A stretch of DNA of 36,661 nt, from IMG/VR virus record IMGVR_UViG_3300037847_008249, positions 1 to 36,661 of that record. One strand, given 5' to 3'. The notes beneath the pieces are model-generated. The model had not been told where the DNA came from. It saw nothing but the letters and a program-made list of their open reading frames with translations, and made no database searches. Below, piece by piece: positions 1,904 to 30,114 of the stretch. Position 1 is the stretch's first letter. Every line of letters begins with the position of its first letter. The translations under genes and the position numbers were made by a program. The stretch is from a virus.

Positions 1904-1917
1904 TTTATTATAAATAT
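1904..1917 (-). promoter_or_regulatory. Putative late promoter/start element, exact copy
   Basis: The coding strand reads ATATTTATAATAAA, ending 7 nt before the ATG at 1896 and abutting the stop codon of the upstream nuclease gene. It is one of four exact copies in the window, all with 7-9 nt to a start codon at the head of a transcription unit. Confidence 0.6.
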
Positions 1918-2684
1918 TAGACAGTTCTTTTTACAATAGTAGGAAAAGATGTAGTAGCAGGCTTATGTTTTGGATTTTCTAAATCAAATAAAGTTTTTAC
2001 TGATTTGAATATTTCTAAATTCTCCTCCTGAGATCTAGATGATACGGACATTTCCCAATTTTTACCTTTTATTTTTTTACCAGATTTATCTTGTCCTCGA
2101 GATTTAGATTTTAACCAAAGTACACCTACATGATCAGCTTCTTTACCAAAACATTCTTTATACATTTGAGCATAAACTGCACCTTGTAAATCATATGTTG
2201 TTTGTAGATGATTAGATGTTTTAAAATCTATGACCCATAATTTATCATCTATTTCACAAATAAGATCACATGTACCAGCAACTTTAAGTTCATCTGAAAA
2301 TAAATGTACTTCTGTTTCTATTAATGTTGGTTTATATGTTTCCCAAAAATCTACAAAACGTAAAAACATTTGCCATACTAAAGGATCCATTTTAGGATAA
2401 CCATGTTCATTTAAATATTTAATTTCTTTACCTTCAAAATATTTTTCTATAAGTAAATGTGTAGCAGTACCTTCCTCACCCGCTTTTTTAACAATCCAAT
2501 CAGCACTATAACCTACCTTTTTAAGCCAATCCTCAAAATGTCGTCCTTTAGGATAACTACTTAAAACATAAGTTACAGATGGGTAATATTCACCATGTCT
2601 TCTATAATATCTAGAATCTGGTAATGTAATTTGTTTGTGGTCATCAGATAATTCAATTATCCTTTTATATGTTTTTTTAATCAT
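1917..2684 (-). CDS. PD-(D/E)XK superfamily nuclease (RecB/Cas4-like)
   Basis: This 255-aa protein shows the RecB-type nuclease motifs in order. They are GTATH (about 72-76), a Glu in TEVHL (about 125), GTCDL with the metal-binding Asp at about 140, VIDFKTS (about 152-157) and QGAVYAQMY (Q at about 167). Such enzymes cut DNA with a divalent metal and in phages act in recombination, genome processing or host DNA breakdown. Which of these applies cannot be told from sequence. Its ATG overlaps the primase stop as ATGA, so the two are probably co-translated and may act together in replication or recombination. Confidence 0.85.
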   Translation of the reverse strand: MIKKTYKRIIELSDDHKQITLPDSRYYRRHGEYYPSVTYVLSSYPKGRHFEDWLKKVGYSADWIVKKAGEEGTATHLLIEKYFEGKEIKYLNEHGYPKMDPLVWQMFLRFVDFWETYKPTLIETEVHLFSDELKVAGTCDLICEIDDKLWVIDFKTSNHLQTTYDLQGAVYAQMYKECFGKEADHVGVLWLKSKSRGQDKSGKKIKGKNWEMSVSSRSQEENLEIFKSVKTLFDLENPKHKPATTSFPTIVKRTV

Positions 2685-3610
2685 ATTGCTAGTTTATACT
2701 CCATAAGGGATGAATAAGTTAATGGAGGTGTTTTTTGGATTAATTTTGTGAAATTTTTAAAACCCATTTCACTTGGATCCTTATCTTGCATATCTACAAG
2801 ATAGACTTCTTTACCTTCTGCCATAAGATTTTCACAAAAACGTAAAGCTTGTTTTATTGCATCCTTATCTAATGCAATATAAATTTTATCTACTAATGAA
2901 GTAACTATTTTCTTCATTAAACTTTTTTGTATATTTTTACCTAGTAATGGAATAGCATTTCTTTTTATAGCTATAGCATCAAATAGCCCTTCACATAGAA
3001 TTATTGGTACATTCCAATTAATTAAATGTTCATTAGAAATTATATCTCTACTAACGGAAGGATTTCTATATTTTACATAAGGTTCCTTCTCAAAACTACG
3101 AGCTGTAAAATAGTTTAGTCTACCATCTGCATCATAAGTTGGAATAATAATCATATTAGCATATAAACCATCTTTACAGTAACCAATATTATATTTTAAA
3201 ATATCGTATTTACTAATATTTCTCTTTTTTAAGTATGCTAACGCGTGTCTTGCAATTATATCGCTTGAACTAACGTCATTTAAACGTATAAATTCATTAG
3301 GCAATGCAATAGTATTGATAACTTTTGTATCCTTAATTGATTTAGATGTTTTAACTAATGACTTTAACTCTGTAAACTTATCTGCAGATGCTTTTAATTG
3401 TTTAAATAAAGAATATATAGTAGTACCTCTAACATCACACGCCCAACAGTGCCAAGGATTTTTTCCTTCACGATTTTCAGTTAAATTAACCTCTAATTTA
3501 GGTTTATGATGATTACAAAAAGGACAATGATATGCATAATTGTTTCGAGCAGTTGGCTTGCCCGAACCCAATACAGAGTTCACTAAAGTAACTAATAACT
3601 GGTTAACCAT
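2681..3610 (-). CDS. DnaG-type DNA primase (zinc finger plus Toprim)
   Basis: This 309-aa protein has an N-terminal zinc-binding segment, HCPFC at 28-32 paired with HCWAC at 54-58, for template recognition. A Toprim catalytic core follows: ILCEGLFDAIAI with the catalytic Glu at about 207, IALDKDA (Asp 248/250) and DKDPSEMG (Asp 276/278). The segment YFTARSFEKEPYVKYRNP resembles the DnaG RNA-polymerase domain. It should lay RNA primers for the phage fork. It is short compared with cellular DnaG (about 580-600 aa) and has no obvious C-terminal helicase-binding domain. Its stop overlaps the nuclease start (ATGA). Confidence 0.88.
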   Translation of the reverse strand: MVNQLLVTLVNSVLGSGKPTARNNYAYHCPFCNHHKPKLEVNLTENREGKNPWHCWACDVRGTTIYSLFKQLKASADKFTELKSLVKTSKSIKDTKVINTIALPNEFIRLNDVSSSDIIARHALAYLKKRNISKYDILKYNIGYCKDGLYANMIIIPTYDADGRLNYFTARSFEKEPYVKYRNPSVSRDIISNEHLINWNVPIILCEGLFDAIAIKRNAIPLLGKNIQKSLMKKIVTSLVDKIYIALDKDAIKQALRFCENLMAEGKEVYLVDMQDKDPSEMGFKNFTKLIQKTPPLTYSSLMEYKLAI

Positions 3611-3634
3611 AAATGTTAATGTACAAAATTAAGT

Positions 3635-4111
3635 TTAATCTGACAAAAAATCTTTAAATTCTATATCAATAAAATCTTTTGTAAAGAATTTACCTAGAAT
3701 ATTATCATTAAAAAATTCATCAGGCTTTTCTAATACCTGATAAATCATTTGGTATTTAGTTTCGTAGTAAGTTAATAATTTTTTATTAGGTGCAAGTTTA
3801 AGAATAATACGTTCAAATTCATCTTTTTTTCCTTCTAGTAATAAATTTTTTATTTCTTTTTGAGAACCATAATATCTTAACCAATCCGATTCTTTAACTA
3901 CTAATTTATATGATGGGCGACGGCCTACTGCTTTTTCTAATCTTTGTAATTCTCTCTTACCGATTTTTTGTTTTCTAGTATGGTATAATACCTTTTTACC
4001 AATATAAGATTTATTAGTAGGTTTATGTGTAACTATATAAACAAATCCAAAAGTGTTTTCAGGAAATTGAGTGACATCGCCTATTTCTTTAGTTTTATAG
4101 GTCCAACTCAT
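3635..4111 (-). CDS. GIY-YIG family endonuclease-like protein
   Basis: This 158-aa protein contains GFVYIVTHKPTNKSYIGKK at about 22-40, the VYI and YIG strands of the GIY-YIG nuclease fold. They are followed by DWLRYYGS (about 76-83) and a candidate catalytic Glu in YYETKY (about 117). The D-W-x-x-YYGS signature is shared with T4 Seg-like and other phage GIY-YIG proteins. It could be a free-standing homing endonuclease or a DNA-processing enzyme. Only one domain is visible and no DNA-binding module is recognisable. It sits between the primase and structural genes and carries a diverged copy of the late element upstream. Confidence 0.8.
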   Translation of the reverse strand: MSWTYKTKEIGDVTQFPENTFGFVYIVTHKPTNKSYIGKKVLYHTRKQKIGKRELQRLEKAVGRRPSYKLVVKESDWLRYYGSQKEIKNLLLEGKKDEFERIILKLAPNKKLLTYYETKYQMIYQVLEKPDEFFNDNILGKFFTKDFIDIEFKDFLSD

Positions 4112-4122
4112 AGAGTAAAGGT

Positions 4123-4136
4123 TTAATGATAAATAT
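4123..4136 (-). promoter_or_regulatory. Putative late promoter element, diverged copy
   Basis: The coding strand reads ATATTTATCATTAA, close to the consensus ATATTTATAATAAA, with 11 nt to the GIY-YIG start at 4111. The substitutions and longer spacing make it a weaker candidate than the exact copies. Confidence 0.35.
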
Positions 4137-4166
4137 AAATAAAAATTTTTAAGTAGACAAATAATT

Positions 4167-5168: not shown

Positions 5169-5173
5169 TCATT

Positions 5174-6259: not shown

Positions 6260-6928
6260 TTAAGTTAATGATTGTTTAGTTATTGTTACTGGGATAGTTA
6301 ATCTTGCTCCACTATCTAATCCTACTACTGTAAGGGTTGATCTTAATTGGGAATTTGAACCAAATAAAGTATTAACAGTAGTTGCAGTAATATTAATTTG
6401 TGTACCTATTACTGTTTTAGAAACACTAGTTCCAATTGTTTCAGTAGCATTTTCATTAGCTGCAGTTGCGGCCTCAGATTGAATTCCTTGTCCTGAAAAA
6501 TTACTCATTAATCTTACATCACCAATTGTAGCACTATAACCTGATGTTTCGAATGTTTGTTCATTACCTAAATAGTTAAGTGTTTGTGGAGTTATAGATA
6601 ATTGAGCTCCTTGTTTTAATGTAATAGCTGCATAACCTAAGTCTAATACAGGTAATTTAGCTGTACCTCTTGGTAATGTTGTAAGTTTATATTTCATTAT
6701 TTGAAGCTCATCTGGAAATGCTTCTAATAGAGGCATGTTATCAATTGCTTCACCATAATATGCAGAACCAGATGGGTGATTAGGATTATATAATGTATAA
6801 TCTATTTCATCATCTCCTAATGCAAATTGTGTAATTTGAAAAGAACCGTCATTTCTTGCTAATAATTCTCTTCCTTTTGTAGTTAATATAGCATCAACTG
6901 TTATTACTGCGTTATTTAAATATCCCAT
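6260..6928 (-). CDS. Conserved virion structural protein (T4-like marine phage type)
   Basis: This 222-aa protein begins MGYLNNAVITVDAILTTKGR, followed by ELLARNDGSFQITQFALGDDEIDYTLYNPNHP. I recognise this block from structural proteins of many marine T4-like phages, but its biochemical role is not established. The rest is beta-rich with a Thr/Val-rich end. It is first in a unit with the two paralogues downstream and is preceded by a late-type element 8 nt before the ATG. It is most likely a tail or baseplate component. Confidence 0.75.
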   Translation of the reverse strand: MGYLNNAVITVDAILTTKGRELLARNDGSFQITQFALGDDEIDYTLYNPNHPSGSAYYGEAIDNMPLLEAFPDELQIMKYKLTTLPRGTAKLPVLDLGYAAITLKQGAQLSITPQTLNYLGNEQTFETSGYSATIGDVRLMSNFSGQGIQSEAATAANENATETIGTSVSKTVIGTQINITATTVNTLFGSNSQLRSTLTVVGLDSGARLTIPVTITKQSLT

Positions 6929-6936
6929 TTTGTTTT

Positions 6937-6968
6937 TTTATATAAATATTGTTATATGTTATAAATAT
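6937..6968 (-). promoter_or_regulatory. Putative late promoter element, two imperfect copies
   Basis: Two copies of the ATATTTATA core occur 19 bp apart. The coding-strand ATATTTATATAAA (6937-6949) lies 8 nt from the ATG at 6928. A second ATATTTATAA (6959-6968) lies further upstream, just past the stop of the giant gene. The proximal copy has the same spacing as the exact copies elsewhere. Confidence 0.5.
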
Positions 6969-6976
6969 GTATTCTA

Positions 6977-9900
6977 TTAAGACTCTATTATTCCTTTAGA
7001 AATTAACTCATTTACTATTATTGAAGCACTTTGTACTAAGTATTCTGTTGGGAAACTTGGGTATAAAATACCTGGAGTAGTAGCAATTTCTAATTCACTA
7101 AATGAACCTGTGTAACCATCAGCATTTGGGTTATTAAGTGCACCACTACCTGTTAAGGCAAATGAACCTGTACCAACAACTAATCCTTCTGAAATGCTAG
7201 CACTAGCTAAAACACCATAAGGGAATGGATAATCTAATAAAAGATTATTAGCAGAAACTTTTGGTCTTCTTACTAAAAAGAAATCTTTATTTACTGTTGT
7301 AGGTACTACACCATCTAATCTAATTTTTAATTGTCCAACAAGGTTATCTGCACCTGGAGCACCAGAACTTGAAATATTTTCTGATGGAGCAAATACTTCG
7401 GTTATAGTATAAGTGAATGATTCATTATTACCAAATCTAATTTCATCACCTTCTTGTAATTCTAATGGATCTTCTATTCTACCAAAATTTGTACCTACAG
7501 GTTCTATTCCACCAGGGAAGTATTGAGAAGAACCAGGAATATAAGCTATTTCACCTTGCCTAAATGAAGTACCATAAGCTTCATTCATATTAGAAGAAGA
7601 CATTACTAAGAAGTTACTACCTGAATTAGCAGAAGAACCTGTATAAACCCAAAATGGTGCTTGAGCCTTATTAGCTTCATCAAGTAAGTAATCAGCAGCT
7701 CCCTGAACTCTAATAATAGTAGGTGTCATTGCACCTGTATAGGTATTTGGGAAAAAGAATCCTTGCTGATAACCACCTGAAGAATCTACAAAATTACCTG
7801 TAAGCCTCCATCTAATAATATCTGAAGTACTTAATGTTCTATTTCCAGTATTACCTCTTATAATCCATTCAATTCCTATTATTGGTAAATGTTGTTTTGG
7901 TCTTGTTTCTCTAATAATACCTAAGTCATACATGGTTTCATACATTTCCCAATCAACAGAAAATTGTAAACCTTTTTTAAATACAGCTCTCGTATATTTA
8001 TAGTTATTTTGAATAGCACCCTTACTTAAATTAATATCTGGGTCTTCAATTAATTCATAATCAAACCAACCATATTGATCAACATCTTTTAATAAAGTTA
8101 CCCCACCTATATCAGTATAAATTTTTGCATCAATTCCTTCTAAATTAAAAGGTGCTACTGTGTTTAGTGTAGAACCTGTATACATTCTAAGTTGAACTCT
8201 TAATTCATCTCTTCCCCCTCTTTCATTAATAGCAGTAGTAACAAATGAATGTTGGAAAGAAATTACTTGATCCGAAACAAAATCACTATCGGTTATTTGA
8301 ATACTACCTGTTATACCTGTACCAGCATAATTAGATCCAGAATAAACTAATTGTGAACCCGCTGCAGAAGAAGTTATTGCTGGATTTAACCAGTAATCAA
8401 CTGTTGTTACAGGTTGTGATGTATTAGCTGTGGTTTCACCTTCTCCTGCACATCTATAAAATCTTATATTTTGTGAATCCTGATTATCATATCTAGATAT
8501 ATAGCCAGAACCTGAAAGGGGTATAGTATTAGTATAATTATCTCCAGAATTTTGAGAATACATTATTGGAGAATAATATTTCATTATTTTTTTAATTTTT
8601 AATAATTCATTAGTACCTACAAATTGTTCTTTTCCCTGTTTTAAAGCTAATTTTGCTGATGTTTCTTCTGGGAATACTGCTTTAAATGTATCAATACTTA
8701 AAGCTTCTAAAGAAGGAGGTAAGGCATTACCTTGTTCATCAATTAAATAATTTAAATTAACTCTTGTTACACCATTGATATTAGGATAAGGATCTGATAA
8801 ATCATTAAAATAACCGAAGAAGGCATTTCTTAATTCAACAGTAGGATTTTTACCATAAGTCCCTTCATCTCCAATACTCCAAACATTTAATAATCTACTA
8901 GTAGATTTTGAACCAATATATCTTGGTATAATTGAAGAAGTTGCAGTATAATTAGAATCAGGTACAGCGGCTTTTACTGCTGTATTATCTAAAATTTGCT
9001 CTTGGTTAACTGGTATAATTGGGCCAGATTCATTATTATAATCTACTCTCATTAAGAATGAACTATCTCTTTGAGCATTAAAGTTATTTAATAATGGTTG
9101 ACAATCTAAAGCTAAACTAAAAGGTAAAATATTAGCACCAAAATAGGTTGATATAATAATACCCGTATCAGTTGGTTGACCTCCAAAATCACTTATCTGG
9201 ACAGGTGGAACGGTTCCTGAATTTTTTGCCCAAATAGAAGCGGAGTTAAAAATACTAGCTGAAAATTCTCTAATAACCATACCTGAACCTAAATTAAATT
9301 TATCAACTTTAACAGTCCATCTAAATACATCTCCAGCTTTAAAGTCACCATTATAAAAAGATGCTGATATAACAGCTAGTTTATTTGTTTGATTAGCTAA
9401 AGGATAAAAAGGCATTTGAACAATTAAATCCCCGGCATCAGCAACTGTAATAGGATTATTTTGTGATGTAGGTTCGTAAATATTAGTTTTTCTTAAAACA
9501 ACTGAACCTGTTACGTTAAATGTATCTAATCCACTACCTGCTAATCCACCAGAAGAAGTAATAAATATAGTTGATCTGTCGCTATTGTCTTCAAATTCAA
9601 AAGTTTGTTCTTGTTGTTGAATACCTTGTAAAACACCTCCAACAATATTACTCATAGAATATTCTACAAAATACATATCACTTGCAGAATTAATAGTATG
9701 GTTTGCACTAGTTGGATCATTATCAAAAATATCTAATATAGGAGAAGAAGCAAAAGATAATTCTAATCCATCATAAATTGATCCAGAATAACCATCACTT
9801 GATGACGCAGCGCTAAATACAGATGAGGTTATTGTTCTTTCACCCCAAGAACCAGTTACTTTAAGGAAAACATCAATAATACCTGTATTATATCTATCAC

Positions 9901-12900
9901 CAGAAGGTGTTGTTTGAGCTACATAGGGTTGTAAATTACTAACAGAACCTTTATAAGCATCAAATCTTAAAACATCTTGTGCTGGTGAAAGTCCTGCTGG
10001 CCAGGATACTGTAGTTATACTTCCTCCAACACCACCACCTTGGGTTGAATAAGATAAAACATCAACTTTAGCATTAAAATCAGTTATATAATAATTAAAG
10101 TTATTTGGGGCTTCTATTTTTATACCAATAAAGGCTGCACAAGGATCACTAGTATCATAAACTTGTGGCGAAGCCGTTGTAGTATCTGGTGCATAAATTG
10201 TTAAGGCATCATTATTAACATAATTAGAAAGGGTTGCAATTCCTGAAGAATTAGCTTTTTGTGCTGATCCAGATACGTTAATTAAAGTATTACTTTCGCT
10301 TTTAACATTTTCTCTTTTAACAAACAAAGATGCAGTAAAGTTTTCTCCAGCATTTTGAGATCTAACAGTAAAGTCTACTGATTTAAATCTAACTGCTCTA
10401 ATATAATTTGAGTTAGCTGGAACTGAAAAACCTGATACAGTTTCGGCATATAGTGCCATTTTTGCATCAATATTATCAATAGTAAATCCAAAGAAACCAT
10501 CATCACTATTAGTACTACTTAAGGAAGCTGAATAACCAGCACCAGGAAAATAACCATCAATATTATCATTATAACTTTGGAAATCATCATTTGATCCACC
10601 AAAATCACTACCTGAAAGTGCTACATAAACTGGTATTGATGAAGCAGTAGTAGGAGGGGTACCTGCTAACTTAAATGAAGGAAAGAAAAAGTCTAATGAA
10701 GCGGTACTTCCCATATTAAGTTTTGGATGTCCACCAGTTAATCCCGCTAAAGAACCAGAATTACCAGGAATTTGAGTATTATAACTTTCAATAAAAACTT
10801 GAGAACTAGGTAAATCTACAATAGCAGGTGAGGGGAAGAAAGATGCATTTGTATCTGCTACACTTCCTGCAGTACCTGCTGTTGCTCCTTTTCCAAAACC
10901 TTGTTGATTTAAATTAGCTACTACTCTAGTACCTTCTGTTAATGAAAAAGTAAAATAAGAACTTCCATCCTTAGAACCAACATAAAATACATCACCTGTT
11001 AATATATTGCCATTAGCCATTTCATCAGTAGTAACTGCTACAGTTAAAGCAGGATCAGTAAATAAACTTGTTCCATTAATCATAAATGGTTCATCCGCAT
11101 ATACTGTTAAATCATTATCTCCAGAATCAGGTGCATCGCTAATACCTTCTGATACCGCTGCTGCTTCTGAAGCAAATCCATTACCACTATTAGTTCTTAA
11201 ATAGTAAGCATAACTTGTAGTTGATAAACCAGGACCAATAGTAAAGTTTTGATTTGTTAAACCAGGACCTGAATGTTTTGAACTTGAATGATAAATACCA
11301 CTAGCTGTAACTGCTGTTGAAGCATTAGGATCAAATGAAGAACTATATTTTAATGATGCTGTTATAAAGTAAGGAACGTTAGGTGTATAGTCAATTGTAT
11401 AAGCAGCTGAGGTAAAAGTAGCTGAACCATTAGGAATAACATTAGTACCACTTTTTGAATTACCAGCTCCACCTATATTAAATTCATAACCCCTATCTGT
11501 TGGTTTATTAACTACACCATTCCAATTTTGGATCATTTGCTCCTGAGCTAAAGTTGTAATGTCAAGAAATACGTTTTGATTATTCAAATCATTACCTATT
11601 ATGTCTCCTGCTCCGATCGTACCATCAGCATTTCTTGCTGGTCTGGTGAAATTGGTTTTTGCTTGAAGACCCCAGTTCATAGCACCTTTATTTGCAGCAG
11701 AACTTGTTATTGGGAAAAATTCTGTTCCATCAACTACTTTGTAGTAATTATTACCATTAATTCCTTCGGCAGTTGAAATATTTAATAAAACAAATTGATC
11801 ATAAATTACCTTAGAAGTAATAACATATTCAGTATAAGATAAGTCAAATGGTACTGTTGCATCAGGTAATAAGATTCTTAAAGTGCTTTCATCATCTAAA
11901 TATTCAATAACTTCAACACCATTAACATCTGATTGGTTAAGTTTTATTGCTACAACTTGTTGAATGTTGGGTTGACCTTGATTAGTTATTTGTGATGCTA
12001 TCCAAGCCTGCCCACTTCTAGGATAATTTCTTTGATTATAAAATTCATCTCTTGAAATTACGGAATCAATACCAGATGGTAAAGAAAAGAAGAATGGTTT
12101 AAAGTTTATTGCATCATCATTAATAGATAAATAAGGTGTACATTTACCAATTGATTGAGTTGTTACAGTTACTAAAGATCCACTAAATTGACCATCATAA
12201 AATTCTGATTGATCATCATGAATAGTAAATTTTGGTCCAACATAAGAAGCACTAATATATTGAGAACTACTTTGGTTAAAAAATGTTGTATTAATGACTG
12301 AGTTGTCAAAAGATTCACTCCAACTTTGAGTTAATAAAAATTGATTAGATGGTGTTGATGAAGCCGTTGTTATCAACATTTCTTGAGTAATAAAAGCTTG
12401 GAAAAAACCACCAGTACCACCTAAAGTTGTTCCATCAATAATAATTGAATCTCCCACTTTATAATTTGGTGTACTTCCAGAAACAACACCTGGGAAAGTG
12501 TCTCCATTTACAACTAAATTAACAATTTCATTTACAGGAAAACCAGCATCATTTGAAACGAAAGAAGCAACTTGTATTGGGAAATTACCACAACAATCAG
12601 TTATTAAAGTTGCACCAAAAAAGTCTTCATCATCACCTGAAACTCCAACAAATTCATTTACCATAGAAGAGGTAAATTGTAAATGGTTAAGTGAACCACT
12701 AAGATTATTAATGGCAAAGAAATAGGATTTTAATCCATTATATCTATTAAATGAACCACCAGGTCCACCTGTAAATTTATAAATAGAAGAACCTGAAGTA
12801 GCATATTGGGGTTGATCAGAAGAACCTGTATGATAGTCCTTAGGGAAGGGCTTTACTGAACCACTATATTGATGGAATGAGGATGTAACTTGGGCAGGTC

Positions 12901-20169: not shown

Positions 20170-20517
20170 TTATCCTTTACTATTCATTAAACCCATAATT
20201 TGATCCATACTAACATTTCCTTGAGGTAAAGTACCATTAGCGGAAGTAGTATCAACTGGACCATTAACTTGTAAAGGTACATCAGCCGAAGTAGCACTTA
20301 AAGTACCATTAGCTCCGGGCATCATACCATTTAAAACATTCATCATGTTTTCTCTTAAAACTTTTTTATCTTTTTCAGGTAATGGTTTACGTGCAACTGT
20401 CTCTTGTACTACTTGTTTTGGTGCACGAACAGCTTCAATTAGAATTTCTTTCATTTCTTCTTGAATGGCTTCTTTTACTGCCTCTTTTATTATAGTTTTT
20501 AATTGACTTAATTTCAT
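20170..20517 (-). CDS. Small helical protein at the head of the gp25-gp6 unit
   Basis: This 115-aa protein has an amphipathic charged helix at the N-terminus (KLSQLKTIIKEAVKEAIQEE and on to about 35), an RKPLPEKDKKVLRENMMNVL helix and a low-complexity C-terminus. Proteins of this shape sit next to gp25 in other marine T4-like phages, but I cannot assign a function. It may be a scaffold or chaperone for baseplate assembly. Two nt separate it from gp25. It is preceded by an exact late-type element 9 nt before its ATG, making it the probable first gene of a seven-gene late unit or shorter. Confidence 0.7.
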   Translation of the reverse strand: MKLSQLKTIIKEAVKEAIQEEMKEILIEAVRAPKQVVQETVARKPLPEKDKKVLRENMMNVLNGMMPGANGTLSATSADVPLQVNGPVDTTSANGTLPQGNVSMDQIMGLMNSKG

Positions 20518-20526: not shown

Positions 20527-20540
20527 TTTATTATAAATAT
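20527..20540 (-). promoter_or_regulatory. Putative late promoter/start element, exact copy
   Basis: The coding strand reads ATATTTATAATAAA, 9 nt before the ATG at 20517, in the 30-nt gap after the 681-aa gene. It heads the gp25-gp6-giant protein run. Confidence 0.6.
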
Positions 20541-20547: not shown

Positions 20548-22593
20548 TTAGGCTTTTAAATTATTTTGTTGTATATAAAATATTAGTTCATCAATCAATA
20601 CTTGATCACTTGAACTAAAAGATAGTTCTCCTTTTAATAAAGTAACACCTCTAGCATCTTTGGCAATAGCACGTCTACGTTTTAAAGTTCCAACAGGGTT
20701 TGAATCATCAGTTTCAACACTAAAGAAAAAACCATTAGTACTAGAAATAATTGGATTACCATCATCTTCTTCCTCTTCTGCTAAATCAAGTAATTCCTGA
20801 TTAATAGCTTCTAAACCTAAATCATCTTCTTCTGCACATTCTTGAAGTAAACCATCAATTGATTTTAATAAAGCTACAACGGTAGTTGTACCAGCAATAA
20901 CAAAAATTAAATTTGTAAGGATAGCTTTATTTAGATCAGTATTTGTTTTTGATAATTCTTCTAACTTTTCATTAATTCTTTGTAATCTAGCTGTAGTTGA
21001 GTAAGGTTGAGAAAAAACTAAACCTCCAAAATCTTTTGCTGGTGGAGTACCAATTGCTTGGGGAAAAGGAAGTGCATCTAAAGATAATCTAAAACCTTTT
21101 AATAATTGACCTAAAATTAAAAATGCACCAGCAATAGCGGTATTAGCTATTATAGTTTTATAGATATTATTTATTTGTCTAGTTACTCTATTTCTTCTTC
21201 TTATTACGTTTTCTAATTCGCCTGGGGTTGGGCAAGTTTTTCTATTAGCTTCTGTTATTTTAGTTATACCAAATGCCAATAATAAACCAATAACTAAAGG
21301 TATAAGTTTTGATTTTATTACATTAGTTAATTTATTTAATGATACTTTTCTTTGAGATAAAACCCATTCAACCTGATTAAGAGCCACATTATTAATAAAT
21401 TCCCCAGCCTCATCAATAGCTCTATCATATTCAATTTTTAATTTTTTAGTTACTGCATCAAAAGTAGTAACTGTTTTAACACCTAATTCAGTTTTTACTG
21501 TTTTATCACCATTTAAAATAATAAAAGTACCTGGTGTATAACCCGTTCCGGCAATTCTTTCATCATCACTATCTCTTTCAGCTGACTTTCTTGATAAAAT
21601 AGCAACATCCAAGGTACATTTTTGAGTACTTGGTATTATTGGAATATAAACATTAATTGTAAAAGTCCCATCTTTACCAGTAATAACATTTTTAGTTGGA
21701 TCATTAGGGTTTCCTGTTATTCTTTTAAGATTAGTAGGTGATTCCTCCTTATCTTTATCATATTCAGGATTTTTGAATTCTTTAACAGGTACATAAACCA
21801 GGTTATTAGGGTTAACTTCTAATCCAACTCCTTCTAGTTCTTTAACTGTTTCACTTCTTTCTAAAAGTCTCCCTAATTGTTTTATTTTTATTGTAACAGT
21901 ATTTCCAAGTAATTCAGATCTATAATTACTTATTTTTTCAGCATATTGAATTTGAGTAGATTTAGATAAATTATTATAATTTTCACTACTTATATTTCCA
22001 ATCAAATCTAATTCCTCGGGTGTTAAAACTTTTTCAGCTGCAGAAGAGGGATTAAGATCTTTAAAATCAACATTAGATATGTCTGGAAATGGGTTTGGGT
22101 TAACTCCAAGAAAAACTTCAGCACCAACTATTGGTTCACTTGTTATTGAATCAATTATTTTTCCGTTAATAGTAAATTTAGTTGTTTCAGGTCTATTGCT
22201 TCTTAATTTTGCAAATAAAATAGCTATCTCAGCACCTATTCTGGTTCTTTGTTTTTCTAAATTTTCAACACCTGCTTCTTCTAATCTTTGTTGTAGTCTG
22301 TCTTCTCTAGTTTCTTTTCGAATTTTTCTATTAGCTTTTCTTAATTCTCTTCTAGCCTCTCTTAATTGTCTTCTTTCTTCTCTTGTTGTGGTATTTTCTC
22401 TACCTTCAAAAACATCAGATAAATATTTACTTAAAGTAGCTTCAATAAAACTAAGATCTAAAAGAGGATATCTTTTTTTATAATCATTAATTTTTTTAAT
22501 TATATCACTTTCATTAATTTTATCTGAGACTAATTGTTTACCCTTTTCAGAATTTAAATTTTGTTGTGATATAGAATTAAGATCAATTGCCAT
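20548..22593 (-). CDS. Baseplate-cluster protein with membrane-like helices and a carboxypeptidase-regulatory-like domain
   Basis: This 681-aa protein has an Arg/Glu-rich coiled-coil segment at about 65-115 (REERRQLREARRELRKANRK). Next comes an FTINGKIIDSITSEPIVGAEVFLG strand pair at about 137-160, completed after a long insertion by GKDGTFTINVYIP at about 300; together these look like a carboxypeptidase-regulatory-like beta sandwich. Three hydrophobic stretches follow: LIPLVIGLLLAFGITKI, NTAIAGAFLILGQLL and LTNLIFVIAGTTTVVALL. An acidic patch and a short beta tail end the protein. Membrane-like helices are unusual in a baseplate gene cluster. It could be a tape-measure-like or membrane-penetrating component; the function is not recognised. 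Confidence 0.7.
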   Translation of the reverse strand: MAIDLNSISQQNLNSEKGKQLVSDKINESDIIKKINDYKKRYPLLDLSFIEATLSKYLSDVFEGRENTTTREERRQLREARRELRKANRKIRKETREDRLQQRLEEAGVENLEKQRTRIGAEIAILFAKLRSNRPETTKFTINGKIIDSITSEPIVGAEVFLGVNPNPFPDISNVDFKDLNPSSAAEKVLTPEELDLIGNISSENYNNLSKSTQIQYAEKISNYRSELLGNTVTIKIKQLGRLLERSETVKELEGVGLEVNPNNLVYVPVKEFKNPEYDKDKEESPTNLKRITGNPNDPTKNVITGKDGTFTINVYIPIIPSTQKCTLDVAILSRKSAERDSDDERIAGTGYTPGTFIILNGDKTVKTELGVKTVTTFDAVTKKLKIEYDRAIDEAGEFINNVALNQVEWVLSQRKVSLNKLTNVIKSKLIPLVIGLLLAFGITKITEANRKTCPTPGELENVIRRRNRVTRQINNIYKTIIANTAIAGAFLILGQLLKGFRLSLDALPFPQAIGTPPAKDFGGLVFSQPYSTTARLQRINEKLEELSKTNTDLNKAILTNLIFVIAGTTTVVALLKSIDGLLQECAEEDDLGLEAINQELLDLAEEEEDDGNPIISSTNGFFFSVETDDSNPVGTLKRRRAIAKDARGVTLLKGELSFSSSDQVLIDELIFYIQQNNLKA

Positions 22594-23867
22594 TATATTG
22601 TTTTTACAATTTTAGATTTATAAGTCTCAATACTATTAAGTAATTGATCTGTTGTTTCTTTAAGTGAACCTGCTGCTAAAGTACTAATTTTTAATTGTGG
22701 TTCACCTGTTAATTTTTCACTTAATATTTGTAATTTTTCTAATAATAATTTAAAATCTTCTAAAAATACATCTCCCTTAACTACAGATTGTGAAGCTTTA
22801 GTTCCACCTAATTTTATATTATTTTTAGCACTTTGTATTACTATATCACCTTGTTGAGAATATAAACCTATGGGTCCTATTGATCCAATAGAAATTGAAG
22901 TTTGTGAATTTAATATTATACTATCAGCTTTTGAATTAAATACAAGTCTATCAGAATTTAAAATAACTTGACTTCCTTCATATGTTTGAACATTTTGAGG
23001 GGGTTGTGAACTTACAGTTGGGTTATTTGTAATTGGTGTTATTAAAGGAATTGCCTGATTAGAAGTTAAGTAAATAGATGAAAGGTCCCTATTAATATCT
23101 TCAACTATAGGAAAATAACCTGTTGGCGATGCATCTTCAGGTTGTCCATTTCTAATAATAGTTATAGGTTCGCCATCTTCACCTGTAGAGGACCAATCAT
23201 TTTGAAAAATATCATTTTGAATTCTAGCTGTGCTACCAAATCTAATTGAGTTCCCCCATCTTCCTTCCATAATAACATCACCAGCATAGGAAAATAATGG
23301 ATGAATATTAGCTCTTTCAAAAAATGAACCACCAATTTGGGGAGAATTATAATTATAATTAACAACTTCTTCAGTTGATTTTCTAGTTTGTCCTTGTTCA
23401 ATAGCTTGATAAGTTTTATTTTCTGTAGATTGAACAAAATTACTTGTATTAAGATTAGGATAGGCATTTAAATGCTGATTATTCCAAATAGCAATTGGAT
23501 TTAAGTAATAATATTGTTTTATATTACTATTTTGATTAATTTGTTTATTAGGTAAATAAAAAAGAATTACTACCTCATCAACTAGGGGATAATTTTTAAT
23601 ATTAGGTAATAAAGGTGTGGCAAATGTTCTAGTTGAGGAAACAGGTAAGGGTGCAACGCCTATAGGTTCATATAAAATAGCACCTATACCACTATAACCA
23701 CCAACTAAATCAAAATCAGGATGAGTATCATCCAAAATAATATCAGTTACTCTAGCAGTTATTACCTGTAAGGATAAAGTATTTAAATCCTCCTGAAATC
23801 TACTATTGTTTTCTCTATTTTGATTTAATGTTTTATTAACAGAAGCAAATCCAAATCTATGAGCCAT
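22593..23867 (-). CDS. gp5: Baseplate hub/spike subunit, T4 gp5-like (no lysozyme domain)
   Basis: This 424-aa protein has an N-terminal OB-fold-like region (LQVITARVTDIILDDTHPDF, ending VDEVVILFYLPN) as in gp5/VgrG spikes. GDVIMEGRWGNSIRFGST follows at about 195-212, the conserved block of gp5 homologues in marine T4-like phages. The C-terminal SDRLVFNSKADSIILNSQTS and GDIVIQSAKNNIKLGG segments look like spike beta-helix repeats. No lysozyme catalytic domain is visible between them, unlike T4 gp5 (575 aa). It should form the trimeric membrane-piercing hub. It overlaps both neighbours (TAATG downstream, 11 nt upstream). Confidence 0.85.
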   Translation of the reverse strand: MAHRFGFASVNKTLNQNRENNSRFQEDLNTLSLQVITARVTDIILDDTHPDFDLVGGYSGIGAILYEPIGVAPLPVSSTRTFATPLLPNIKNYPLVDEVVILFYLPNKQINQNSNIKQYYYLNPIAIWNNQHLNAYPNLNTSNFVQSTENKTYQAIEQGQTRKSTEEVVNYNYNSPQIGGSFFERANIHPLFSYAGDVIMEGRWGNSIRFGSTARIQNDIFQNDWSSTGEDGEPITIIRNGQPEDASPTGYFPIVEDINRDLSSIYLTSNQAIPLITPITNNPTVSSQPPQNVQTYEGSQVILNSDRLVFNSKADSIILNSQTSISIGSIGPIGLYSQQGDIVIQSAKNNIKLGGTKASQSVVKGDVFLEDFKLLLEKLQILSEKLTGEPQLKISTLAAGSLKETTDQLLNSIETYKSKIVKTI

Positions 23868-24213
23868 CTTTATTTTGTTCGAAATTAGTGTTAAGTTTAT
23901 CTAATTCAGCCATTAATTCTTCTTTTTCTTCTTCTGTAATACCTAATGAATCTTCGCCACTACTATTATTAAGCGCACGTTGTACTATAGTAGCCATTTT
24001 TATTAATTGTTCATCGTTTCTTACACCAATTTCCATATATTCTTTTATAAGTGGTACAATTAAAGTAGCGTCACCTATATCATTAATAAGGGGTTTTAGT
24101 TCAGAAATTAAACCAGTTATTTGTTTTTCTTTTTTTTTCTGGTTGTCATAAATTTCACTAAGTATATCAGAGAACTTTTTCTTTTTAAATACTATATTGT
24201 CTAGTGATCCCAT
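23857..24213 (-). CDS. Conserved small protein upstream of the gp5-like gene
   Basis: This 118-aa, highly charged, mostly helical protein starts MGSLDNIVFKKKKFSDILSE and has GDATLIVPLIKEYMEIGVRN in the middle and a Glu-rich end. Short helical proteins occupy this site in other T4-like marine phages, but I know no assigned function. It overlaps the gp5-like gene by 11 nt and carries an exact late-type element 7 nt before its start, so it leads the gp5 unit. It may be an assembly factor. Confidence 0.7.
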   Translation of the reverse strand: MGSLDNIVFKKKKFSDILSEIYDNQKKKEKQITGLISELKPLINDIGDATLIVPLIKEYMEIGVRNDEQLIKMATIVQRALNNSSGEDSLGITEEEKEELMAELDKLNTNFEQNKDGS

Positions 24214-24220: not shown

Positions 24221-24234
24221 TTTATTATAAATAT
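24221..24234 (-). promoter_or_regulatory. Putative late promoter/start element, exact copy
   Basis: The coding strand reads ATATTTATAATAAA, 7 nt before the ATG at 24213, in the short gap after the sigma-factor gene. It heads the gp5-like unit. Confidence 0.6.
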
Positions 24235-24249: not shown

Positions 24250-24954
24250 TTAGAATCTAGCGTAGCCGTTTTCTAAATAAAAAATATATTGGGATTTAAA
24301 AATTGTATGTAATTTATCAGCTATTTTAGTTATTTTAGGAGTCTTTACATCTACCATTTCTCGTATGTAAATGTATAAAGCTTTTTTATTAAATACCTCT
24401 AAAGATTCTCTTTTGCGAAATAATTCTAAAATTGCATCAGCTATTTGAGCATCATTCTTTTTAGGGAATAAATCAAATATATTTTCAGAAACATATTCAA
24501 TAAAAAGATCCATATATTTATCTAAATCACTTTTTATTCTTTCATCCCCAATTTTATATGAGTGGTCAGAACCATCTTTAGTTAATACATCTACTTCAAC
24601 TTTTTTTATTTTTTTATTATAATTTTTAGTATTATATAGTATTAACCAACGTTTTACAATAGTACCAAAATAAGAATATGCCTTTGCCCCCCTACTAGGA
24701 TCAAATAAATGCATTTTAGATAGAAGAAATGTAATAATTTCATGTTGTAAATGTTCTAAATTTTCAACATCTGTATGGTAAAATTTAAAGGTATGAATTA
24801 TATTTTGAGTAAGCTTAAAAAAAGCAAAATGTATTTCACGTTCATATATTTTACTTCTTATTTCGGGATCCTTAGTATTATTATATAATACTATAGCGTT
24901 TTCCGTGTCCTGAGTAAAGTAGTTTTTACTCTTTTTTCTTCTTTTTCTGGGCAT
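24250..24954 (-). CDS. gp55: Late-transcription sigma factor, T4 gp55-like
   Basis: This 234-aa protein has a basic N-terminus (PRKRRKKSKNYFTQ) and the core LFDPSRGAKAYSYFGTIVKR at about 83-102, followed by WLI. This is the region-2-like segment (F-D-x-x-R-G-x-x-A-x-x-Y-F) of sigma-70-family proteins as found in gp55 of T4-like phages. T4 gp55 is 185 aa. It should redirect host RNA polymerase to late promoters, with the ATATTTATAATAAA elements as candidate targets. Its own gene lacks that element nearby, consistent with expression before the late genes. Confidence 0.85.
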   Translation of the reverse strand: MPRKRRKKSKNYFTQDTENAIVLYNNTKDPEIRSKIYEREIHFAFFKLTQNIIHTFKFYHTDVENLEHLQHEIITFLLSKMHLFDPSRGAKAYSYFGTIVKRWLILYNTKNYNKKIKKVEVDVLTKDGSDHSYKIGDERIKSDLDKYMDLFIEYVSENIFDLFPKKNDAQIADAILELFRKRESLEVFNKKALYIYIREMVDVKTPKITKIADKLHTIFKSQYIFYLENGYARF

Positions 24955-26334: not shown

Positions 26335-26760
26335 TTAGATTCTCTTTACTACTTCTTGAATATTGTGTAAGTGTGCACATTTTTCATATTCTTCTAATTC
26401 TTGAAAATATATAATTGCACTTTCTAGGGATTCATTGAAAACTTTAGGATCAAAATTTATGATAGCATTTACATCATCATGGTGATCCAATGTAATTCGA
26501 TTAATATAACTCCAAGCTCTATTATAAACGGTAAATTCGGATGCTTCTTTAGCTGCACCTACATTATAATTTGGTTGTTCTTTTTTTAAAAATTTTTCTA
26601 ATTTTTTATGGAATACTTGATGATTTTGGATTAATTTAACAAACATACCTATTTTAGCAAAAGGACCATTCATAAAATCCTTTATTTCGGATTTTGTTTT
26701 TTCATCCGTAATTTCTTTACCTTCTACAAATAGTTTGAATATTTTGTCCTTATTTATCAT
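26335..26760 (-). CDS. Hypothetical helical protein
   Basis: This 141-aa, mostly helical, charged protein contains IITFDPKVF-like and HHDDVNAIINFDPKVFNES stretches and a C-terminal LEEYEKCAHLHNIQEVVKRI. No domain is recognised. Its ATG overlaps the thermonuclease stop as ATGA, so it is the second gene of that unit and is probably expressed with it. Confidence 0.65.
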   Translation of the reverse strand: MINKDKIFKLFVEGKEITDEKTKSEIKDFMNGPFAKIGMFVKLIQNHQVFHKKLEKFLKKEQPNYNVGAAKEASEFTVYNRAWSYINRITLDHHDDVNAIINFDPKVFNESLESAIIYFQELEEYEKCAHLHNIQEVVKRI

Positions 26761-27101
26761 CTTTTTCCTCCATCATAAGTTACAGCATGGCCTTCTGTAA
26801 TTAATAAATCATTTAATTTAACATCACCAAAAAATATTTCACCTAAACATCTTCCATATTTACCTACACCTTGAGAGTGTAAGATAAAATTATTTTTATG
26901 TTTTTTAAACATATCAACAACAAACTGTTTAGCGGCTAAACCCCTTGCTTTTTCTTCTAAATCCCTAGTACGAGACTCAGGTGTATTAATTCCAACAAGT
27001 CGTATTCTTATTTTTTTCCAAGTATCAAAACCCAGATCTACAGAAGCATCAACGGTATCACCATCTACTACTCTTCCTAATTTTGCATTATAAATGTACA
27101 T
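26757..27101 (-). CDS. Thermonuclease (staphylococcal nuclease-like, SNase fold)
   Basis: This 114-aa protein is a compact SNase domain with GRVVDGDTVDASVDLG (9-24), IRIRLVGINTPESR (31-44) and GKYGRCLGEIFFGDVKLND (80-98). The expected catalytic Arg34, Glu42 and Arg84 are in place. The Asp usually before T-P-E is Asn39, a variation common in the family. It has no signal peptide, so it probably acts on DNA or RNA in the infected cell, for example in nucleotide recycling. It is preceded by an exact late-type element. Confidence 0.9.
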   Translation of the reverse strand: MYIYNAKLGRVVDGDTVDASVDLGFDTWKKIRIRLVGINTPESRTRDLEEKARGLAAKQFVVDMFKKHKNNFILHSQGVGKYGRCLGEIFFGDVKLNDLLITEGHAVTYDGGKR

Positions 27102-27109
27102 AATTATGT

Positions 27110-27123
27110 TTTATTATAAATAT
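27110..27123 (-). promoter_or_regulatory. Putative late promoter/start element, exact copy
   Basis: The coding strand reads ATATTTATAATAAA, 8 nt before the thermonuclease ATG at 27101, in the 25-nt gap after the 64-aa gene. Confidence 0.6.
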
Positions 27124-27126
27124 GTA

Positions 27127-27321
27127 CTACTTACCTAATTTATCTAATTCTTGTTCAATATCAGTTTTAATTTGTTTAAGAATATTATATTCTTTTACAA
27201 CATCTTTTTTATTAGGATTATCAGGATGATATCTCCAAACTTCATCCATTACGGTTTGTGTAGCAACCAAATCTGCTACTAATTCTGATTTTTCTTGGTC
27301 TAATTTTTCTTGATCAGTCAT
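27127..27321 (-). CDS. Small charged helical protein, unknown
   Basis: This 64-aa Lys/Glu/Asp-rich protein (MTDQEKLDQEKSELVADLVA at its start) contains VWRYHPDNPNKKDVV, a J-domain-like stretch around H-P-D. With only 64 residues and no full J helix set, a DnaJ assignment is not justified. It begins one nt after the T5orf172 gene stop, so it is co-expressed with it. Confidence 0.55.
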   Translation of the reverse strand: MTDQEKLDQEKSELVADLVATQTVMDEVWRYHPDNPNKKDVVKEYNILKQIKTDIEQELDKLGK

Positions 27322-27322
27322 T

Positions 27323-27799: not shown

Positions 27800-28418
27800 C
27801 AAATATAATTTTAAATTCTTTATTAACTATAACATCATCTCTAAATATAGTTTCAATAAAAATTTTAGCAGTATCACCAACCATTTGATTATCAAAAAAT
27901 ATTTGTTGTTGGGGTGTATAATTATATCTACTATAAGTACCTAAATCATAAACATCTGAATTAGGGTTATATGAATATCCTACTATATTAAGAGGAGGGA
28001 AATTTTGAGCCATATCCTCTATAGTATAAGTAGTATTACCTACAGGAATAGGTGTATCAAAATTACCATCTGTAAAATATCCTAAGGGACTATATAATGG
28101 AACAGTAAAAGTAATACCATCAATCCAAATCCAATAATTTGAATCAAATAGAGTAGACATAACGGGTACTCCATTTACAACATAACCGGGATGAAGTTCA
28201 TCTATTCTACCTTTAATTGTAAAGTAATTATAACCATGATGCTCAATATGCCAATATCCATTCTCATCTTGATAAACACCAGGTGATACTAAAGGATCAA
28301 TCCAAAATTCTGTATTACACTCACCATCTAAACAAGGATAAGCGTAGGAGTGGATCTCCTCCTTACTACAACTAGCAAGGAGAAAACCTAAACCTAATAT
28401 TAATAAAAATTTCTTCAT
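27786..28418 (-). CDS. Phage-encoded lipoprotein with Bacteroidota surface-export-like signal
   Basis: This 210-aa protein starts MKKFLLILGLGFLLASCSKE, a signal peptide with a lipobox (L-A-S-C). The residues after the Cys, S-K-E-E, fit the lipoprotein export signal described in Bacteroidota (Lys plus two acidic residues), which places lipoproteins on the cell surface. The mature part is aromatic- and Tyr/Asp-rich (HIEHHGYNYFTIKGRIDE, YWIWIDGITFTVPLYS) and looks beta-rich. No enzyme motif is visible. Superinfection exclusion or shielding of a receptor would fit but is inference. Its ATG overlaps the DUF932 stop as TAATG. Confidence 0.8.
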   Translation of the reverse strand: MKKFLLILGLGFLLASCSKEEIHSYAYPCLDGECNTEFWIDPLVSPGVYQDENGYWHIEHHGYNYFTIKGRIDELHPGYVVNGVPVMSTLFDSNYWIWIDGITFTVPLYSPLGYFTDGNFDTPIPVGNTTYTIEDMAQNFPPLNIVGYSYNPNSDVYDLGTYSRYNYTPQQQIFFDNQMVGDTAKIFIETIFRDDVIVNKEFKIIFDEFD

Positions 28419-29302
28419 TAGGCATTTACATATTGAAGTGCAACATCAAACATCTTACTATTCAGATCCATATCTTGTTTAAAGTTTTTAATCTGTCTAG
28501 CTTTTCTATGTTTAGTACCTACTGTATAATCAAAATCACCTTCAATAATTTTTTCTTGAATTACATTAAATACACTCCATAAATCATCTCCTTTATCTTC
28601 AGGTCTAACTGGAGTAATAAACTCATCCATATCAATAGTAATTCTTTTTAATTCATCCTCTGGGAATCTAACTGCAAGCATATCCTTAGCAAATTTAACT
28701 ATTGAATTTTGATTCATTTTAGTATCAATCATATTATTCATTGATTCTACTGTTAATGGTAATCTTTCAGTCATTTCAGTAATTTGCTTTTGTAGCTCCT
28801 CAAAATCATAACCCATATGTCTAATAGCAACTTTTTCAAATTCATTAGTTGATATAACTAAACCATTTTCACAAATCATTCTAAATAAACCAGCGGTAAA
28901 TGTAAATGCATTTTTACCATCATGAGAATTAGTTAATAATATTTGTGGGAAAACAGTATCAATTGGGTTTTTCTTTGCGAATGTACCATCAGTTCTTCTA
29001 TAACCTGTAGGAGAAGTAATTGATTCTCTAATGTCATTAGGCATTTGATTAATTACAATATCATCATTTCTAAATACTACTAAATGTTTTTGAAAACCAA
29101 CAGTACTTTTTTGTCTAGCTTTAACCTCTTTAGCATCAATAGCTTTCCATCCTAATAATTTCATATCATCAATCAACTTATAAGTTGGGATATGTGAATA
29201 TTTACTTGATACTTCAGGAGAAGGTTCAGTTGAGAAGATACTTGGTGCCATTGCTTTTAACTCACCTTTACTTAATTCTTGACTTTTTCTTAAATCTAAC
29301 AT
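28418..29302 (-). CDS. DUF932 family protein
   Basis: I place the start at the ATG at 29302 (MLDLRKSQELSKGELKAMAP, 294 aa). The frame continues upstream, but that part runs through the hairpin and promoter-like repeat. DUF932-like features are LGWKAIDAKEVKARQKSTVG, FQKHLVVF, TNSHDGKNAFTFTAGLFRMICENGLV and KHRKARQIKNF. This family is common on phages and plasmids. Its function is not established, although N-S-H-D-G and C-x-N-G-L are highly conserved. It is expressed from a repeated promoter-like element and leads a unit with the lipoprotein. Confidence 0.85.
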   Translation of the reverse strand: MLDLRKSQELSKGELKAMAPSIFSTEPSPEVSSKYSHIPTYKLIDDMKLLGWKAIDAKEVKARQKSTVGFQKHLVVFRNDDIVINQMPNDIRESITSPTGYRRTDGTFAKKNPIDTVFPQILLTNSHDGKNAFTFTAGLFRMICENGLVISTNEFEKVAIRHMGYDFEELQKQITEMTERLPLTVESMNNMIDTKMNQNSIVKFAKDMLAVRFPEDELKRITIDMDEFITPVRPEDKGDDLWSVFNVIQEKIIEGDFDYTVGTKHRKARQIKNFKQDMDLNSKMFDVALQYVNA

Positions 29303-29333
29303 AACTTTTATTTTTTTAATTATTAATATGGGG

Positions 29334-29364
29334 TAAATATACGAAAGGGAGCCTGGGTAGCCAA
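29334..29364 (-). promoter_or_regulatory. Bacteroidota-type promoter, copy 1 of a repeated element
   Basis: The coding strand has TTG, exactly 20 nt of spacer, then TATATTTA. This fits the Bacteroidota -33/-7 pattern (TTG, TAnnTTTG). It is 31 nt upstream of the DUF932 ATG. The surrounding 49 bp (29316-29364) recur at 29672-29720. Confidence 0.65.
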
Positions 29365-29370
29365 GCTCCC
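29347..29370 (-). terminator. Hairpin, probable terminator overlapping promoter copy 1
   Basis: The coding strand can form a 10-bp stem (GGGAGCTTGG against CCAGGCTCCC with one G-T pair) and a 4-nt CTAC loop. It lies 14 nt after the stop of the 91-aa gene and is followed by TTTCG. The T-run is short, so it may attenuate rather than end transcription. The -33 TTG of promoter copy 1 sits inside the stem. Confidence 0.5.
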
Positions 29371-29384
29371 TGCGCATTACTTTT

Positions 29385-29660
29385 TTATTTTTTTACTAAT
29401 AAACTTGGTGAAACTGTGTAAATATCATTAACTCCAAAACCTTTAACTTTAATATTTTTATTATTAATTTTGGTAATTGTGAATATACTATTAGAATCTA
29501 TTTTTCTATGATTAATTCCAACTTTATCTCCTACTCTAAATGAATTCTTAACATCAAAATTAATTTCTGATTTTCTAATAGAATAAACATTTTGAATTTG
29601 AGCTAATTCTGTTTCATCTGCATTTTTAATGAATGCTAACACTTGATCTAAATTTGTCAT
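29385..29660 (-). CDS. Small SH3-like/KOW-like barrel protein, unknown
   Basis: This 91-aa protein has a helical N-terminus (MTNLDQVLAFIKNADETELA) followed by a beta part with SFRVGDKVGINHRKIDSNSI, FTITKINNKNIKVKGFG and YTVSPSLLVKK. The R-V-G-D-K-V and later strands look like a small SH3-type barrel. A nucleic-acid or protein-binding role is possible but not demonstrable. It is transcribed from promoter copy 2 and ends just before the hairpin. Confidence 0.7.
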   Translation of the reverse strand: MTNLDQVLAFIKNADETELAQIQNVYSIRKSEINFDVKNSFRVGDKVGINHRKIDSNSIFTITKINNKNIKVKGFGVNDIYTVSPSLLVKK

Positions 29661-29689
29661 AACCTTTATTTTTAATTATTAATATGGGG

Positions 29690-29721
29690 TAAATATACGA
29701 AAGGCTCCCTGGGTAGCCAAA
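29690..29721 (-). promoter_or_regulatory. Bacteroidota-type promoter, copy 2 of a repeated element
   Basis: The coding strand has TTTG, 20 nt, then TATATTTA, 29 nt upstream of the ATG at 29660. It shares a perfect 33-bp block and a perfect 13-bp block with copy 1, separated by the same 3-nt gap in both (GAG in one, CTC in the other on the plus strand). Confidence 0.65.
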
Positions 29722-29738
29722 TTAGTACGCGGAAGTTT

Positions 29739-30086
29739 TTAAGAAATTGTTAATTCTAAATTTCCTGTACCTCTTAACATTGAAGAACCTGCTGCTACTG
29801 TAGCAGTTGGAGTAAAATTTAAGGCAGTTGTACTGTTAGGTGGAATTACTATTGACCACTTATAAGGACTTGTTATTAAATCATTTTCATCTAATCCAGT
29901 AAATGAACCAAAAGTCCCTTCTGCATTTCTAGCTATACTTCCTGAATAAACTCCATCTGCATTTCTTACTTGTTCCATAGTAAAGTAAACGGTTGCATCT
30001 AGGGAATTACCAAAAAGAAATGTTTTTTCACCAGAAAGTTCTTCTGTTGGGACTCCTTGTCCCCCTAATTGAGTATATGTAGCCAT
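29739..30086 (-). CDS. Small virion-like beta protein
   Basis: This 115-aa Thr/Ser/Gly-rich, beta-rich protein contains TFLFGNSLDATVYFTMEQVR, NADGVYSGSI and SIVIPPNSTTALNFTPTAT. The composition resembles the structural proteins in 4-17 kb. Small capsid decoration or head-completion proteins have this look, but no family is recognised. A palindromic late-type element lies 14 nt upstream of its ATG, and it is transcribed away from the rightward cluster. Confidence 0.65.
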   Translation of the reverse strand: MATYTQLGGQGVPTEELSGEKTFLFGNSLDATVYFTMEQVRNADGVYSGSIARNAEGTFGSFTGLDENDLITSPYKWSIVIPPNSTTALNFTPTATVAAGSSMLRGTGNLELTIS

Positions 30087-30100
30087 AGTTAATTATTATT

Positions 30101-30114
30101 ATATTTATAAATAT
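30101..30114. promoter_or_regulatory. Palindromic late-type element between divergent genes
   Basis: ATATTTATAAATAT is a perfect 14-bp palindrome that contains the ATATTTATA core on both strands. It lies between the leftward 115-aa gene (ATG at 30086) and the rightward 105-aa gene (ATG at 30113, inside the element). It could serve both directions. The rightward spacing is too short to match the other copies. Confidence 0.5.

Follow-up and report, generated by a model that had tools for sequence, protein, structure and literature searches.

A candidate late promoter and a putative sigma-like reader in T4-like phages of Bacteroidetes

Late promoters of phage T4 consist of a lone -10-like octamer, TATAAATA, which is read by the small sigma2-type protein gp55 (PMC2988020, PMC7892883). 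Y97 of gp55 stacks on A-12 of this octamer, N13 and H95 make contacts at -9, and T99 does so at -8 (PMC7892883). In T4-related phages, late consensus sequences derived in silico read a/gC at -13/-12 in Aeh1 and are near that of T4 in S-PM2, KVP40 and 44RR; a 2010 review of T4 asks why a gp55-gp33 fusion had not been found in nature (PMC2988020). We found nothing relevant on a late promoter of flavobacterial phages, or on the octamer TATTTATA, in the open-licence literature. Here we analyzed a 36,661-nt stretch of viral DNA (IMG/VR record IMGVR_UViG_3300037847_008249; hereafter, the window), in which an earlier note, made without database searches, had proposed that the repeated 14-mer ATATTTATAATAAA is a phage-specific late promoter set at a fixed distance from start codons.

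The window carries T4-like tail genes, including a baseplate wedge gene (17871-19760) and a gp25-like gene (19760-20167). Annotated phages related to it are immuto, a Flavobacterium phage with a complete genome of 160 kb, Mel-JY01 (190 kb) and an uncultured phage of 484 kb; many IMG/VR contigs contain homologs. Comparison with these genomes supported the proposal through independent motif discovery, association with structural genes, direction, conservation and the presence of a sigma gene, while three details of it were found to be wrong or incomplete. Judging from sequence, we consider it likely that the motif serves as late promoter in a group of T4-like Bacteroidetes phages (the window's marine clade, Immutovirus and relatives) and that it is used by host RNA polymerase together with the sigma-like protein encoded at 24250-24954.

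The octamer in the window and in related phages

An exact-match search of the whole window located the 14-mer four times, in agreement with the earlier note, each time on the minus (coding) strand and never on the plus strand; a reversed control word returned no copies. Under Markov models of order 1 to 3, 0.02-0.04 copies were expected on both strands summed, close to the rough estimate of 0.03 given before. The copies end 7, 9, 7 and 8 nt before an ATG (1904-1917, 20527-20540, 24221-24234 and 27110-27123, respectively), and a variant at 6936-6949 ends 7 nt before one, so that the reported spacing of 7-9 nt was reproduced here. Matches with up to two mismatches were weakly enriched (19 seen, 10.2 expected; 19 was reached in one of 100 shuffles). 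This suggests that the signal resides in the core of the 14-mer and in its placement, and that the motif is most usefully defined as TATTTATA with A-rich sequence after it, located ahead of a gene; its essential part is this octamer followed by an A-rich stretch, a run of A. Of the 17 called genes that are preceded by noncoding sequence, 7 have the octamer sense-upstream, where 0.59 were expected and the maximum in 300 simulations was 3.

When the window was scanned with a matrix trained on immuto, the sites of the earlier note ranked at the top, all of them intergenic and in sense orientation (Table 1), and no intergenic late-type site was found in the small-gene cluster (31925-36614), from which the note had likewise reported no copy. 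Its three variants (4123, 6937 and 30101) are late-type sites too, with corrected details: a better site lies at 4134-4141, two octamers are present within 6936-6968, and the site at 30101 is divergent, with an octamer on each strand.

The same element emerged in immuto from expectation-maximisation on 89 upstream regions, in which the motif was not supplied as input. The first motif recovered was a host-type Bacteroidetes early promoter and the second was TATTTATAaaaAAaaa; the best motif in shuffled sequence was much weaker (log-likelihood of 50 vs 262 for the first immuto motif). Small early-type genes carry TTG-N20-TATATTTAGGTATCAATAATTAAAA, which is the layout of Bacteroidetes primary-sigma promoters (this class may also be written TATATTTAG), and structural genes carry the second class, TATTTATAaaaAA. 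The octamer is present in 15 of 32 upstream regions of structural blocks vs 6 of 73 others (p=1.7e-5). Conversely, the early motif is depleted in structural blocks (1/32 vs 22/73 elsewhere), and no immuto upstream region contained both types. TATTTATA with A-rich sequence precedes the portal, terminase, sheath, tube, hub, tape-measure and baseplate genes. The -33 consensus, present in 23 early sites, is absent from 16 aligned late sites, which show an AT-rich segment downstream of the octamer. Several octamers, e.g. those of terL and gp065, stand directly 3' of terminator-like hairpins.

Conservation was assessed in orthologous upstream regions taken from IMG/VR contigs, whose gene calls were mechanical. 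The octamer was found in 63 of 63 distinct regions upstream of orthologs of 20170-20517 and in 61 of 67 for 23857-24213. At the nuclease head, 12 of 19 orthologs of the site at 27110 have TATTTATA, and several of the remainder have TATGTATA. Before operon-internal genes it was found in none of the regions in most cases and in at most about 10% in others, except for g26335 (21/51), a possible alternative operon head. The octamer is invariant at orthologous sites, and many adjacent bases vary. Across 48 non-redundant loci of the window's clade, in which intergenic gaps make up 3.4% of the DNA, TATTTATAA points toward the next gene at 94 sites in tandem gaps and away from it at 3; a further 8 sites lie in divergent gaps and none in convergent ones. 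The LR clade shows a similar bias (13 vs 1). In five flavobacterial phages with no detected sigma homolog, the octamer was not enriched (0-1 sites, 0.2-0.6 expected).

A sigma-like protein encoded in the window

The earlier note had mentioned a gp55-like sigma gene in the window. The product of 24250-24954 has a region 2 of the gp55 type and an additional C-terminal domain; on the best reading of the sequence comparisons, it would be related to gp55 only distantly and may be a natural sigma2-sigma4 fusion. Members of the family are about 230 aa long, and those of immuto and Mel-JY01 are annotated as hypothetical proteins. One IMG/VR scan yielded 479 candidate relatives and another at least 600; the Mel-JY01 protein retrieved no relatives when used as a query against viral contigs. 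Sigma70_r2 gave weak matches in 22 of 37 diverse members (best, 0.0011), and the PHROG family annotated as late sigma transcription factor (phrog_234) was matched by 6 of the 37 (0.0012). A profile of the family was aligned to one built from seven T4-type gp55s; the 100 aligned columns reach from the Y-x-N-N segment near the N-terminus to region 2.4, with E=3.2e-4 and an hhalign probability of only 39% in this single comparison. Ordinary tblastn with T4 gp55 or the immuto protein gave no link between the two, and alignment to the single T4 gp55 sequence was too weak to use, the profile-profile comparison being better.

A structural model built from 37 diverse sequences (pLDDT 77) replaced a low-confidence model from 14 close sequences (pLDDT 49). 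It is all-helical; its Foldseek matches in the PDB were nearly all sigma factors, none passing E=0.001, and one match in a viral structure library reached 2e-4. The helical domain at residues ~143-228 is conserved in all family members and had no Pfam sequence match, Sigma70_r4 included. Structural alignments to two-domain sigma factors mostly spanned 200-300 columns, but with E>0.001 in the PDB. The extreme C-terminus, considered with the hydrophobic/acidic clamp-binding motif of gp55 in mind, is not conserved across the clade. A search for the gp45 sliding clamp with PF02916 matched nothing in four genomes, but the control search matched nothing either, and a clamp candidate beside the clamp-loader genes of Mel-JY01 had PHROG matches only to families of unknown function.

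We propose that host RNA polymerase carrying the sigma-like protein would recognize the core octamer, without a conserved -33/-35 element, and that the AT-rich stretch that follows would melt. By analogy with T4, the octamer would lie about one helical turn upstream of the start site. Transcription from these sites would cover the tail, baseplate and head operons and would follow that of the early genes, which would be read from ordinary Bacteroidetes promoters. The sites of the window's clade lie so near the ATG that, given the geometry of T4, leaders would be only ~5-10 nt long, and in some immuto relatives the baseplate-head mRNA would be leaderless. The late-type site at 27110 precedes the sigma gene, and late transcription may thus boost production of its own sigma factor; judging from gene order, initial sigma transcripts could come from the host-type promoters at 29690-29720 and 29334-29364.

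If so, a large and mostly uncultured group of marine flavobacterial phages would gain a concrete late-gene switch with a likely regulator, and their late operons would become predictable from sequence. Leaders that are very short or absent would also merit attention, since translation in these hosts does not use Shine-Dalgarno sites.

Competing explanations and mapped features

The alternative that survives best, although we regard it as improbable, is that these are promoters read by the host primary sigma factor, through an unusual -7 element, or by some phage or host factor other than the 24250-24954 protein. The octamer shares its initial TA and its AT-richness with the host -7 box, TAnnTTTG, and its binding by the phage sigma is itself a proposal. 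However, the -33 TTG that marks the early class is missing from late sites, the two types do not co-occur upstream of any immuto gene, and phages without the sigma show no enrichment. Furthermore, in the best known analogue, a lone -10-like octamer (TATAAATA) is likewise read by a small sigma, gp55.

We consider it quite unlikely that the motif is a translation-start signal, the alternative offered by the earlier note. Ribosomes would then be recruited by an A/T-rich sequence at fixed spacing; Shine-Dalgarno sites are missing in Bacteroidetes, which favour leaders rich in A. The 14-mer does lie 7-9 nt from five ATGs of the window, and the A-run after the octamer may also have such a role. Flavobacterial ribosomes respond to A at -3 and to A-rich leaders (PMC6847099). 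However, early genes have equally A-rich leaders without the octamer, which stands at operon heads and almost never before internal genes. In orthologs of the baseplate-head gene, which share a conserved N-terminus, the distance from octamer to ATG ranges between 3 and 28 nt. Many immuto relatives have 3 nt and some have 5-6; the distance is ~14 nt in the window and 19 nt in other orthologs, and it reaches 28 nt in the LR clade, with GAGGAG inside this interval. In Mel-JY01, the octamer or close variants of it lie ~30-45 nt upstream, with GGAG-like sequence between. Because orthologs keep the motif at varying distance, the fixed spacing is a local feature, true of the window and close relatives and not of the family. 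This variation, together with the Shine-Dalgarno-like sequence that intervenes in two lineages, argues against a role in translation.

Two further ideas are weaker still. One, for which we see very little room, is that the functional element is the T4 promoter on the opposite strand, transcribing away from the late genes. TATAAATA is indeed the exact reverse complement of TATTTATA; at 94 of 97 tandem sites, however, such a promoter would face away from the start of the neighbouring gene, and the conserved A-rich segment downstream of TATTTATA lies where a sense promoter would have its melted region. Chance clustering in AT-rich DNA is practically negligible, in spite of the window's 71% AT and the mild enrichment of two-mismatch matches, given four exact copies against the small expectation above, conservation at orthologous sites and strand bias in relatives.

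Several observations weigh against the late-promoter reading that we prefer. An exact octamer is missing upstream of about half of the structural genes of immuto, the major capsid gene among them, and six immuto octamers precede genes outside structural blocks. The relatives share ancestry, and counts of sites among them are not independent events; in the wider immuto group, the strand bias is weaker (94 vs 36). Single sigma domain matches of the 24250-24954 family fall under curated cut-offs. Finally, at sites 3 nt before the ATG, the T4 spacing would put the start inside the codon; therefore, a shorter spacing or another start would be used there. In immuto relatives (L220, L198, L227 and others), the octamer ends 3 nt before the conserved ATG of the MKLDQLRKIIREEVR gene (TATTTATAtatATG). 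With this spacing, their baseplate-head mRNA would have to be leaderless.

Table 1. Candidate promoters and associated features of the window.
Feature	Position	Strand	Matrix score	Details
Late promoter candidate	1904..1917	-	13.3	Exact 14-mer; octamer TATTTATA at 1909-1916; intergenic, sense
Structural-gene unit that 1904..1917 would serve	1192-1896 / 500-1192	-
Late promoter candidate for gene 3635-4111	4123..4141	-	12.1	Octamer TATTTATA at 4134-4141; weaker than the others
Late promoter candidate for tail gene unit starting at 6928	6936..6949	-	13.1
Second octamer before gene 6260-6928	6955..6968	-	10.0
Late promoter candidate, head of baseplate operon	20527..20540	-		Exact 14-mer; orthologs in text
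Late promoter candidate heading 23857-24213, 22593-23867 and 20548-22593	24221..24234	-		Exact 14-mer; orthologs in text
Late promoter candidate heading nuclease gene 26757-27101 through sigma gene 24250-24954	27110..27123	-		Exact 14-mer
Divergent site TATTTATAAATA	30102..30113	both	13.4 on each strand	One octamer per strand
Sigma-like protein, proposed octamer reader	24250..24954	-		234 aa; gp55-type region 2 and extra C-terminal helical domain
Putative host-type promoter before gene 29385-29660	29690..29720	-		Bacteroidetes -33 TTG / -7 TATATTTA; TTG-N20-TATATTTA layout as in immuto early genes
Second putative host-type promoter, before gene 28418-29311	29334..29364	-		Near-copy of the sequence at 29690..29720

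The baseplate operon probably extends from 20517 to 16128 and onward to 6977. The gene at 6928 is similar to immuto gp107, which likewise starts ATGGGATA and has TATTTATAATAAG upstream. The divergent site lies between genes 29739-30086 (minus) and 30113-30430 (plus), and its plus-strand octamer runs into the ATG. The two host-type promoters fall in near-identical ~60-nt blocks (29311-29375 and 29660-29730; about GGGAGCCTTTCGTATATTTACCCCATATTAATAATTAAAA plus its upstream part), with a possible hairpin in the -33/-7 spacer. A scan of the window with the sigma-70 consensus was uninformative in such AT-rich DNA (61 hits vs 71 in shuffles).

Other observations concern the surroundings of these sites. 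The tail-gene block includes a 3046-aa open reading frame (6977-16117) with no PHROG match; its positional counterpart in immuto, the large gene gp109, encodes only 1265 aa. Genes 500-1192 and 1192-1896 are adjacent, have similar starts (MGTAGGPKLVTKGL and MGFTRGPNIVTENL) and both match virion structural PHROGs, and we read them as tandem paralogous virion proteins. A strong terminator-like hairpin, AGACCCCCCGAAGGGGGTCT, at 31034-31053 is followed, on the minus strand, by TTTTCC and lies downstream of the small-gene cluster. No tRNA genes or Rfam families that could serve as a test with a non-coding transcript were found in the window. In Mel-JY01 (PP395634.1, deposited as a Microcystis phage; L166-L169), TAnnTTTG boxes of the Bacteroidetes type precede many early-type genes (16 sense vs 6 antisense upstream regions), and its closest relatives infect Flavobacterium; the phage may in fact infect a Bacteroidetes bacterium that was present in the Microcystis culture.

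Comparison with T4 late promoters and Bacteroidetes early promoters

The sites described here resemble T4 late promoters in having a single -10-like octamer, no conserved -35 element, an AT-rich downstream segment and a position at the heads of late operons, and in their proposed reading by a small phage sigma of the sigma2 type (PMC2988020, PMC7892883). The earlier note had considered their orientation opposite to that of T4, an impression that arises because the octamer is near-palindromic. Read on the same strand, TATAAATA and TATTTATA are identical at six of eight positions (TAT..ATA, with A-12 and A-8 included) and differ only at -10/-9, which is AA in T4 and TT here, so that the consensus is not that of T4 itself. 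In contrast to T4, the promoters of the window's clade and of immuto sit very close to start codons. The T4-family variants described above have -13/-12 changed or nothing, whereas the change here is at -10/-9, and the phages studied here, unlike those, have early promoters of the Bacteroidetes type. Compared with the Bacteroidetes sigma-A promoter (-33 TTTG, -7 TAnnTTTG), early genes use TTG-N20-TATATTTA, while the late octamer has the initial TA of the -7 box in common with it and lacks both its TTTG part and the -33 element.

The putative reader differs from gp55 as well, since it is ~230 aa long and the seven T4-type gp55 proteins, at 158-185 aa, lack the C-terminal domain at ~143-228. In the profile alignment, Y97 of T4 gp55 corresponds to Y95, which is invariant in the clade, and the positions aligned to N13, H95 and T99 differ. 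On the hypothesis drawn from this one alignment, these residue changes would agree with retention of A-12 and the change from AA to TT at -10/-9, and the two families may offer a natural test of how the specificity of a gp55-type sigma shifts at these positions. A more tentative idea, which we regard as possible though rather doubtful, is that the protein is a natural fused late sigma, in which a gp55-type domain 2 is joined to a flap-binding domain (region-4-like or gp33-like) and the -10/-9 bases of its octamer have changed along with the residues of the pocket in which they are contacted. The long-standing question of a fused late sigma, raised for T4, would thereby become testable.

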